In this document: positions 380-19,828 of the stretch, in pieces
Layout: the number at the start of each line of letters is the position of its first letter
Position numbering within the stretch: position 1 is the stretch's first letter
Assembly (NCBI GenBank): GCA_017857195.1
Contig: JAFMDM010000002.1
Location: 1 to 40,109, forward strand
Reading direction: 5' to 3'
Length of the DNA: 40,109 bases
Source: Methanobacteriota archaeon
GTDB lineage: Archaea; Thermoproteota; Thermoprotei_A; Sulfolobales; Sulfolobaceae
Position numbers and translations under genes: made by a program
Notes under the pieces: model-generated
Database searches by the model: none
Seen by the model: only the letters and a program-made list of their open reading frames with translations
What the model was told of the DNA's origin: nothing

Positions 380-2131
380 TCAACTATTCGAAAAGCATTG
401 CTCTACAAAAGATACTATAACACTGAATTCCCTGGCTTCGGATTCAGGATCGGCTATTGAATGCCCTGAATCATTAACGAATAGCATAGTATCGTTTCCT
501 AAGGCTTTAGATTTAGCCACATATTTTAGGGCATGGGCAGGATGAACTCTGTCGTCAAAAGTTCCGGTAACAACCAATGTCTTAGGGAGTCTTGGCCTTA
601 AATTGTGGTAAGGACTATAAGAGAGGAGGTAATCCCTGTACTTTGGATCTTTCGGATCCCCATACTCATCAATCCAATATTTCCCCACATAAAGCTCAGG
701 ATAACGAATCATATCTAAAACCGGATGGATGATCACTGCACAGTCAATCAACTCCGGAGATCGATTGGCCACAGCTCCTACAAGAAGCCCACCATTACTT
801 CCTCCCATGGCCACCGTCTTTCCTCCGAATTCTTTCACCAACTTAGTGAAACTTTCAAAGTCCTTGAAAACATTCTTCTTGTTAAGGAGCATTCCTTGCT
901 TATGCCACTCCTCTCCATCTTCATAGCCGCCTCTAAGGTTAGTTATCAAAACTGAAAATCCTCCGTCTAATAGGGGTCTCAGATAGGAGGGAAATGAAGG
1001 TAGCAGGGAAATTCTAAATCCGCCATACCCATATACTATAACACCCTTTGACTTCGGAGATTTAGAAAGAAGGAAGCCATGAAGAAGAACATCGCCCTTT
1101 ATGTATACATCAGTTACATTAATGTTGTAGTTACCATACTCCATAATAGTTTTAGTCCGTTGAACCTGTCCTTTCTCCACCGTCTTCTTGTGAACCTTAT
1201 ACTTAAATTTAAATGACGTCTCGCCGAGAAAAAGCGAGCTTCCATTAGAGTCGATGAAGATAACATTATCGTAAGTTTCTTCATTGGTATTTATTCCATT
1301 TATATCATAGTAAAGGATCTGAGTTCTATAATCTTTTATTACATTTATAGCGAGAAAATCTTTACCTGCAGTGGCATTAATTATGGGGAAGTTCGAGTTT
1401 ATACTTTTCTCACCAAGTTTTATTGTATTATTTTTCATATAAATTAATTGATCGGTGTAAGCAATTACGCTAAGTACTTCACCCTCGTCAATCTTTCTAA
1501 GTGAATTGAAGTCCTCACCTACATAGAGTTCACTGAATCGCCATCCCCTGCTCTTCACCACGGTCAGAACACTGCCAAACACCTTCGGTTCAACAAATTC
1601 TCCAGGACCTAAATCCCTCCCATACACTATTTCCTTTCCGCAGAAGATTCTTTCAGATGGAAATTCTCCGCCGTCTGGAGGTGCAGACTCCCTATAACTC
1701 TGTACATAACATAAGTCTCCATTGAAGTAAAAGGGGGAGCTGACAAACTGCCCTAGCTCCTTAATTCCTCCCTCCACTGAGATAAGGAGGGTAGTTAACT
1801 TATCGCTCCCCTTCCTTCCAATGCTAACTCCTATCTCGTCAGAATTATAAACTTTCCAAATTGAGGAGAGAACATAACCCTCAGGTGGAGTGTATAAGAC
1901 CTTGCTCCCCAGAAGTAACTTATTGCTCTCGCCGTATAAGAGCAGGGCAGGCTCGTCCTCTGAATAGGCAAACATGTCTAAAATTTGAGGCTCTCTGAAT
2001 ATCGACAAAAGTGAGGGATATACTTCATTGGCTCTCCCTCCTAAAACTCGATCTGTCTCCTCATTCGACTTTGCAATGAACTCCCTAGTTTTTTCGTTTT
2101 CCAAGTTCTCTAAATACTCGTATTCATCCAC
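380..2131 (-). CDS. prolyl oligopeptidase family serine peptidase (S9); true start probably GTG at 2131 rather than 2221
   Basis: GGSNGGLL nucleophile motif, DDRVHPAHALK (Asp) and GHS (His); typical S9 N-terminus 'DEYEYLENLENEKTREF'. The 30 residues upstream overlap a repeat element. TATA-like CTTATA about 25 nt upstream of the GTG. Confidence 0.85.
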   Translation of the reverse strand: MDEYEYLENLENEKTREFIAKSNEETDRVLGGRANEVYPSLLSIFREPQILDMFAYSEDEPALLLYGESNKLLLGSKVLYTPPEGYVLSSIWKVYNSDEIGVSIGRKGSDKLTTLLISVEGGIKELGQFVSSPFYFNGDLCYVQSYRESAPPDGGEFPSERIFCGKEIVYGRDLGPGEFVEPKVFGSVLTVVKSRGWRFSELYVGEDFNSLRKIDEGEVLSVIAYTDQLIYMKNNTIKLGEKSINSNFPIINATAGKDFLAINVIKDYRTQILYYDINGINTNEETYDNVIFIDSNGSSLFLGETSFKFKYKVHKKTVEKGQVQRTKTIMEYGNYNINVTDVYIKGDVLLHGFLLSKSPKSKGVIVYGYGGFRISLLPSFPSYLRPLLDGGFSVLITNLRGGYEDGEEWHKQGMLLNKKNVFKDFESFTKLVKEFGGKTVAMGGSNGGLLVGAVANRSPELIDCAVIIHPVLDMIRYPELYVGKYWIDEYGDPKDPKYRDYLLSYSPYHNLRPRLPKTLVVTGTFDDRVHPAHALKYVAKSKALGNDTMLFVNDSGHSIADPESEAREFSVIVSFVEQCFSNS

Positions 2132-2180
2132 AATGAGACAGATAACATAAGGGGGTATAAGCTGATCCATAAGTTGGAAG

Positions 2181-2331
2181 AGTGTGTCGATAGTGTCATC
2201 AAGGATTAGGTAAATTAACAAATGCCTATCTGTGGAGATCTATTGACTTGCCACAATCCTCATTAATTCGTGGCAGCGGAATAACGTTCTGAAGCGAAGA
2301 TAATTTATCTTGACAAGTGATGACACTATGG
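2181..2331. repeat. ~150-bp TIR element, copy A (MITE-like)
   Basis: Perfect 12-bp inverted termini ATAGTGTCATCA (2190-2201) and TGATGACACTAT (2318-2329); the core TCATTAATTCGTGGCAGCGGAATAACGTTCTGAA (2260-2293) is identical over 34 nt to 19572-19605. Confidence 0.8.
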
Positions 2332-18056: not shown

Positions 18057-18115
18057 CGAGCTAAGTTAACCCCCTAAAGAAGAAGGCTTTAATCTAGTTT
18101 CCTCACCTTGTCCAA

Positions 18116-18508
18116 ATGCAACGAAATCCTAAAAAGCATCATGATGACATCTATGAGGTATGTGCTAGGTCCTACTCTAGCCCTATAGACAAAAGTCTTT
18201 TTTCCCTATTTTCTACAACTGCCTCACATGCCAATCCATACGTTGGCGAATGTCACCAATGTAAGTGTCGGCCCATATGTAACGGGGGGATATGTATCGG
18301 GGAATATCACAAATGCAACTTACATTCCCACCCCGACGCCGTTCAGTGGGGGTACAGCCGTTTATACTACTCCATGGTACGTGGCCGCTGAACCGCTCCT
18401 GATCCTCCCCTGATCCTCCTCGCCGGTTTGATCGTAATAGGGATCACCCTCTACTTCTCACCCTATAGGAGGACCCTAACTAAACTGCTAAGGTTAAGGA
18501 AGGGCTAA
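18116..18508 (+). pseudogene. decayed secreted/membrane-anchored protein gene
   Basis: In-frame TAG at 18186; reading frame NVTNVSVGPYVTGGYVSGNITNATYIPTPTPFSGG...AAEPLLIL breaks at an 11-bp tandem duplication. Removing one unit (18399-18409) joins it to LAGLIVIGITLYFSPYRRTLTKLLRLRKG*. Confidence 0.6.
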
Positions 18509-18695
18509 GAACCTTAAAAACTTGGCCGTCCAGTACGAGAGTGTCCCTCTCTCGTTGACTTTCATGCTCCCTCTTCCTCGTGATTCCTTCAAGTAGCTCC
18601 CTGTCTACTCATGCAGTAGTATTAGGCCGTCTAGGTTTCTTGATGACCTCTCCCCTCGCGAGGTCCTCGGCTTACCCTTAACTTCCATAAAATTG

Positions 18696-18855
18696 TATCG
18701 GGAGATCATAATTGACATTGATTAGGCAAATTAACATGTGCCTATCTGCCAAGCTCTGTTAACCTGCTACAATCCTCATTAGTTCATGTCAATCACACAA
18801 TGTTCTGAAGGGCGAGATAATTTATCCTGATAAGTGAGGAGACTATCGACACACT
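18696..18855. repeat. TIR element copy B (degenerate left end)
   Basis: Shares ATTAGG.AAATTAACA..TGCCTATCTG, CAATCCTCATTA and GAGATAATTTATC.TGA.AAGTGA with copies A and C; right end ACTATCGACACACT is the reverse complement of the left end of copy A (AGTGTGTCGATAGT). Confidence 0.7.
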
Positions 18856-19211
18856 CAAAGCACATCTGAAGTCTTCTTAGATCCTCTCCTCACTAAGTCC
18901 TTATCATCGCTGATTAAAGGGACTCCATACTTCCTGCTTAGGAACAGGTATGATGCGTCGTAGTAAGTTATGTTCTCCTTCTCAGCGATTAGAAGCACGT
19001 TTTCGTTCAGACCAATACTTTCGATTTTCAAAAACTTCATAACGTTCTGGAAGTCGGTGACCAAATTAGTTCTTTTGACTTTCCATAGGAAATTCCCTAT
19101 TTCGTAGTAGGCCAGATCTGCGGTCAGACATTCCTTGAAGAGATCTATGACGGCTTCTCCAGCCTTTTCAGTAAGGTTAATTATCGCGGAAGCGTCCAAT
19201 ATATATTTCAC
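18855..19211 (-). CDS. vapC: VapC family PIN-domain toxin
   Basis: YILDASAIINL, YYEIGN, TYYDASYL and ISDDKDL PIN acidic residues. Confidence 0.9.
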   Translation of the reverse strand: MKYILDASAIINLTEKAGEAVIDLFKECLTADLAYYEIGNFLWKVKRTNLVTDFQNVMKFLKIESIGLNENVLLIAEKENITYYDASYLFLSRKYGVPLISDDKDLVRRGSKKTSDVL

Positions 19212-19438
19212 CTGTCATCCCTACCCTCCCTGATCAACCTGGCCACCTCCTCCTCTGACACCTTCAATTCCCCAACTATCCTTCTTGCGGACGCCCTAGC
19301 CTCTTCCTCTTCTCTCCTCGAGATCTCCTGTTCTAAAGCTCTCCTCAATACCTCCGACACGTTGATGTTATACCTCCTCGCCATTTCCCATATCTCCCTT
19401 CTGACTTTAGTGGAAACCGTGACCCATTCCATGATCAT
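19208..19438 (-). CDS. vapB: VapB family antitoxin (track start 19702; real start probably ATG at 19438 or 19432)
   Basis: MEWVTVSTKVRREIWEMARRYNINVSEVLRRALEQEISRREEEEA ribbon-helix-helix-like; overlaps vapC start by 4 nt. Upstream translation is repeat element C. Confidence 0.85.
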   Translation of the reverse strand: MIMEWVTVSTKVRREIWEMARRYNINVSEVLRRALEQEISRREEEEARASARRIVGELKVSEEEVARLIREGRDDR

Positions 19439-19484
19439 TACTACATTCATGGTAATAATAAATTTTACTACCTGGGGGGATAAC

Positions 19485-19646
19485 AATGTGTTGACAGTGT
19501 CGTCACAGGTTAGGTAAATTAACAGACCCCTATCTGTCGAGATCTCAAGATCTATTGACTCACCACAATTATCATTAATTCGTGGCAGCGGAATAACGTT
19601 CTGAATGGAGAGATGATTTATTCTGACAAGTGACCACACTATTACA
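19485..19646. repeat. TIR element copy C
   Basis: Termini ACAGTGTCGTCAC (19494-19506) and GTGACCACACTAT (19630-19642) are inverted with 2 mismatches; 34-nt core identical to copy A. Confidence 0.8.
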
Positions 19647-19702: not shown

Positions 19703-19777
19703 CGGACCCGGGGGGATTCGAACCCCCGACCACTGGCTTAGAAGGCCAGCGCTCTATCCTGGCTGAGCTACGGGTCC
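19703..19777 (-). tRNA. tRNA-Arg (anticodon TCT), intronless
   Basis: Reverse complement folds as GGACCCG-TA-GCTC...-CTGGC CTTCTAA GCCAG-...-GGGGG TTCGAAT CCCCC-CGGGTCC-G. Confidence 0.97.
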
Positions 19778-19828
19778 CGACATTTTCTTATTTGAAGAGG
19801 CTTTAACGTTTATCCTTGCTCTTCCTAT

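Follow-up and report, generated by a model that had tools for sequence, protein, structure and literature searches.

Two IS1-derived MITEs beside an intact vapBC operon at a rearranged tRNA-Arg locus of a Sulfodiicoccus-like archaeon

The window, i.e., the whole stretch of 40,109 nucleotides analysed here, contains a vapBC toxin-antitoxin operon between two same-orientation copies of a short repeat, with a tRNA-Arg gene adjoining. We consider it likely that a horizontally spread vapBC operon came to lie at a rearrangement junction and that two miniature inverted-repeat-type transposons (MITEs) inserted beside it independently. An otherwise ordinary operon would have ended up at this junction, which lies between tfs and an ADH gene, and two copies from an old family of IS1-derived MITEs would have inserted next to it at different times, one (copy C) just upstream of the vapBC operator and the other (copy B) within the final codons of vapC, whose stop would now come from the terminal repeat of that copy. 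Both copies would survive because operator, antitoxin, and toxin stay intact at these positions. The independence and order of these events, the selective tolerance of the insertions, and the origin of vapBC are inferred from the comparisons below.

About 36 copies of the repeat were found in the draft genome (1.78 Mb) to which the window belongs. The copies are ~150 bp long, with a consensus core of 141 bp, and hold no coding sequence of their own. Ends of ~36-40 bp are common to the repeat and to broken ~800-bp IS1-family transposase genes of the same genome; the terminal repeat GAGTGTGTCSATAGTGTCG also closes these decayed elements, whose reading frames correspond to IS1-family transposase (NCBIfam transpos_IS1, NF033558, E=4e-18, partial match) and whose relatives in other Sulfolobaceae have longer open frames. 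When the flanks at the inner end were examined for a target duplication of 9 bp, five copies agreed at 7-9 of the 9 bases, compared with ~0.4 expected from mismatched pairs. Given the match of the ends to decayed IS1-family transposase genes and the 9-bp duplications in some copies, we assign the repeat, by its sequence features, to an IS1-derived MITE family of short non-autonomous transposons: it is multicopy, shorter than 500 bp, and non-coding, its ends are those of an autonomous-type element, and its duplications are of IS1 length (8-9 bp). The repeat had no match in 30 other Sulfolobaceae genomes or in 40 relatives, including the congener Sulfodiicoccus acidiphilus (G001), and a MITE family apparently confined to one Sulfodiicoccus-like lineage is an addition made by this analysis. 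The family resembles the Sulfolobus MITE families (SM1-SM4, SMN1, and SM3A) in being short, bounded by terminal repeats, non-coding, multicopy, and, as would be expected, dependent on an IS transposase for mobilisation in trans; compared by description only, it differs from them in that its ends match IS1-family relics. An Rfam search of the region returned the tRNA only and so gave no sign of the repeat being a known RNA, and the two exact matches to the terminal repeat in viral contigs both lay inside apparently unrelated coding DNA.

In many MITE copies, the terminal repeat is short of its outermost nine or ten bases at one end of the element or at both. Two forms of the end were seen: the CATAGTGTC end, accompanied by 9-bp target duplications, and a form with about ten extra conserved bases (GAGTGTGTCS), in many cases on just one side. 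Three copies (L037, L052, and L057, on contigs C155, C35, and C17) adjoin a common GC-rich hairpin-like sequence, CCCTCGCCCTTCCAGGGCGGGGAGGAAGTCAG, which bears a likeness to an IS200/IS605-type element end. The best-preserved IS1-family relic of the genome (L150:555-1364, contig C57) is ~810 bp long, with intact terminal repeats and a broken frame, and the remaining IS1-family matches of this genome likewise appear decayed.

The window holds three copies of the family, all on the plus strand: copy A (2178-2330), copy B (about 18698-18856), and copy C (about 19482-19646). The scores of copies B and C against the family consensus (E=1e-35 and E=8e-32, respectively) indicate that neither is a chance match. 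The left terminal repeat of copy B is decayed (about 18698-18720), and the right one is intact (18834-18856; 21 of 23 positions). Copies B and C have an identity of only 0.70 and belong to different subfamilies; those nearest to B are L058 (partial) and L035, and the nearest to C, which is of the A-like subfamily, is L033 in the copy-A group. In the 9-bp flank test, a target duplication was absent from both copies. Copy A covers the first 44 bases of a listed 613-aa ORF (380-2221, minus strand, TTG start), and given this overlap, the true start of that ORF is probably further in.

The operon between copies B and C is carried on the minus strand. vapB (19208-19432) encodes a ribbon-helix-helix antitoxin (CcdA/RHH, Pfam E=6e-6), whose match to NCBIfam TA_anti_VapB_Sulfo (E=2.4e-8) falls short of the model cut-off, and it overlaps the downstream vapC (18855-19211), which encodes a PIN-domain toxin of 118 aa (Pfam E=3.7e-7) with the acidic residues conserved in its homologues. 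This is the layout of a type II VapBC system, and the pair is intact, complete, and family-typical. Upstream of vapB, at 19449-19471, a near-palindromic sequence, GTAGTAAAATTTATTATTAC, is aligned in all homologous loci examined and is taken as the putative vapBC operator; the left end of copy C lies about 12 bp upstream of it and about 50 bp upstream of the vapB ATG (19432). At the other end of the operon, the vapC TGA stop (18857-18855) overlaps the terminal repeat of copy B, which reaches 18856 and supplies GA as its first two bases. The closest homologue, from a Marsarchaeota MAG, ends in SDILTQ, whereas VapC of the window ends in SDVL followed by the stop and is two residues (TQ) shorter. 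The insertion of copy B thus appears to have cut two residues from VapC and donated the stop codon, a clear instance of a MITE supplying the stop of a gene. The sequence-only reading of the window had described this anatomy, namely copies B and C in one orientation around vapBC, the tRNA-Arg adjoining, B ending at the vapC stop, and C starting upstream of vapB, essentially correctly and with the right coordinates; it had also rightly taken the repeats as non-autonomous.

Relatives of this vapBC share 46-67% identity with it (67% in the Marsarchaeota MAG, 61% in G020, a genome of genus g4, 59% in Thermoproteus sp. CP80, and 52% in Metallosphaera javensis) and occupy unrelated loci in Sulfolobaceae, the Marsarchaeota MAG, and Thermoproteus, where no MITE flanks them. 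This scattered distribution fits horizontal spread of the operon. No relative of VapC was found in viral contigs, and plasmids gave a single distant VapC match. Jaubert et al. (2013, PMC3718332) report that all vapBC loci but one in Sulfolobus islandicus LAL14/1 are flanked by degenerate IS copies, which are probably involved in vapBC transposition. Our locus is similar in that decayed insertion elements adjoin the operon, but the neighbours here are MITEs rather than IS copies, they differ in subfamily between the two sides, and the genus is another one. The locus adds another case to the known association between decayed transposons and vapBC in Sulfolobales.

Bacterial composite elements built from miniature elements are on record, both for Tn3-derived elements (PMC4133298) and for Acinetobacter MITEs (PMC10969869). 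We considered whether MITE B, vapBC, and MITE C were once moved together, as a unit of the TIME-COMP type, by an IS1-family transposase supplied in trans. The same orientation of the two copies, whose better-preserved ends face vapBC, the lack of vapBC at this site in five relatives, and the IS1-type relics in the genome favour such a unit. The flanking copies are nevertheless far from near-identical, as the 0.70 identity and different subfamilies show, and when the alignment was inspected outside B and C, no matching target duplication was seen around the unit. A second MITE-vapBC-MITE locus was not found in the own genome, in 40 relatives, or among 47 vapC loci of named genomes, and the contigs that carry the other VapC genes of this genome (C122, C16, and C168) hold no copy of the repeat. 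Like the TIME-COMP and MITE-flanked composites of Pseudomonas and Acinetobacter, the locus has genes between two miniature elements; in those composites, however, the end elements are identical or near-identical to each other and mobility has been shown or is repeated, and none of these traits was seen at our locus. A unit of this kind would also need extra events to account for the inverted tRNA and the long-range break in synteny described below. Transposition as a composite unit is therefore unlikely, and on these sequence comparisons B-vapBC-C is not supported as a mobile cassette. A repeat-gene-repeat arrangement should not be equated with a mobile cassette until subfamily, target duplications, and synteny have been checked.

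Besides the parallel in G020 described below, two points could count against independent insertion, which we still prefer. First, three pairs of MITEs closer than 1 kb were seen, slightly above the number expected by uniform chance (about 0.7 for 36 copies; P about 0.03). The two other pairs lie on C155 (inverted), around an MscS-like gene named from its sequence, and on C109, around ~400 bp without a clear gene; the mild clustering probably reflects avoidance of genes. Second, the target duplications of old insertions could have been lost through decay.

In five relatives, including S. acidiphilus (G001, G002, G003, G012, and G019), tRNA-Arg(TCT) lies no more than about 35 bp behind the genes csl4-rpoL-orf-tfs and points the same way, and the linkage of tfs and tRNA-Arg is, judged from this gene order, ancestral. 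In the window, tRNA-Arg(TCT) (19703-19777, minus strand) lies about 1.65 kb from tfs and is inverted relative to it. Its upstream spacer (19778-19811, minus strand) is like the tfs-tRNA spacer of S. acidiphilus (0 of 1000 shuffles were as similar), indicating that the tRNA moved along with its promoter region. The genes after the tRNA, starting with ADH, correspond to the 193-216 kb region of S. acidiphilus; tfs is located in that genome at 2,293 kb, about 275 kb away on the circular map. The locus between tfs and the ADH gene is thus a lineage-specific rearrangement junction. None of the five relatives carries vapBC or the repeat at the tRNA-Arg site. Contig C165 holds a further tRNA-Arg that might have been the true ancestral copy, but it was ruled out, its anticodon being that of Arg(CCT).

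Since synteny is broken, the tRNA is inverted, and two MITEs are present at the locus, an alternative is that recombination between dispersed MITE copies produced the rearrangement and placed vapBC beside tRNA-Arg. The visible limits of synteny, however, fall outside the MITEs: the tfs stop (18057) is 640 bp and the tRNA spacer (19811) 165 bp away from them. The sequence between the tRNA and copy C is weakly S. acidiphilus-like (20 of 1000 shuffles reach its similarity), and this speaks against C as a breakpoint; the copies are also too divergent to recombine easily. Such recombination is accordingly quite improbable. The proposal of the sequence-only reading that the repeats mobilise vapBC or serve as its recombination sites is not supported, on several counts: copies B and C differ in subfamily and have no target duplication, whether shared or at the outer ends, the other close pairs bracket unrelated DNA, the other VapC genes have no repeat, and an inverted tRNA with a long-range synteny break is not expected of a simple cassette insertion. 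It had pointed to two things to look for, the same vapBC with the same flanks at other loci and an empty tRNA-Arg site with a single repeat, and neither occurred in any genome searched. The arrangement that it had named as its own refutation, vapBC beside the tRNA as an ancestral state, was not borne out either, since the relatives have no vapBC there.

A parallel to copy C was found in G020. There, an IS1-family relic ends in the same terminal repeat at a distance of 9 bp from the same putative vapBC operator, on its upstream side; measured from that operator, this is within 3 bp of where copy C lies. The elements differ, an IS relic in G020 and a MITE here, and the two therefore look like separate insertions. 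The parallel may be a matter of survivorship, the operon being left unharmed by insertions at this position, or of target preference; it comprises two cases among the loci checked. It could also be taken as a recurrent association of IS1-type ends with vapBC, which would count against independent insertion. In its strongest form, IS1-type ends would lie repeatedly upstream of the vapBC operator across genera, with IS1 transposition (MITE or IS) recurrently capturing or regulating vapBC and the operator flank serving as a preferred target; we regard this as highly doubtful. The G020 relic, whose end adjoins the putative operator, is interrupted by an IS607-type element (a resolvase and a TnpB-like ORF; L086:6500-9244).

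That the junction is an assembly artefact is extremely improbable: the draft consists of 193 contigs, is 87.7% complete, and the repeat is multicopy, but the G+C is 0.44 in both halves of the window and each is about 70% identical to S. acidiphilus, which makes a cross-species chimera unlikely, the divergence of B and C is too high for collapse, and the vapBC operon is complete and family-typical. The stretch from the end of tfs to copy B (18057-18697) had no substantial match in 25 relatives. It holds fragments that resemble the broken 3' end of a membrane-protein gene, and at 18250-18508 a frameshifted fragment resembles the C-terminal membrane anchor of a protein.
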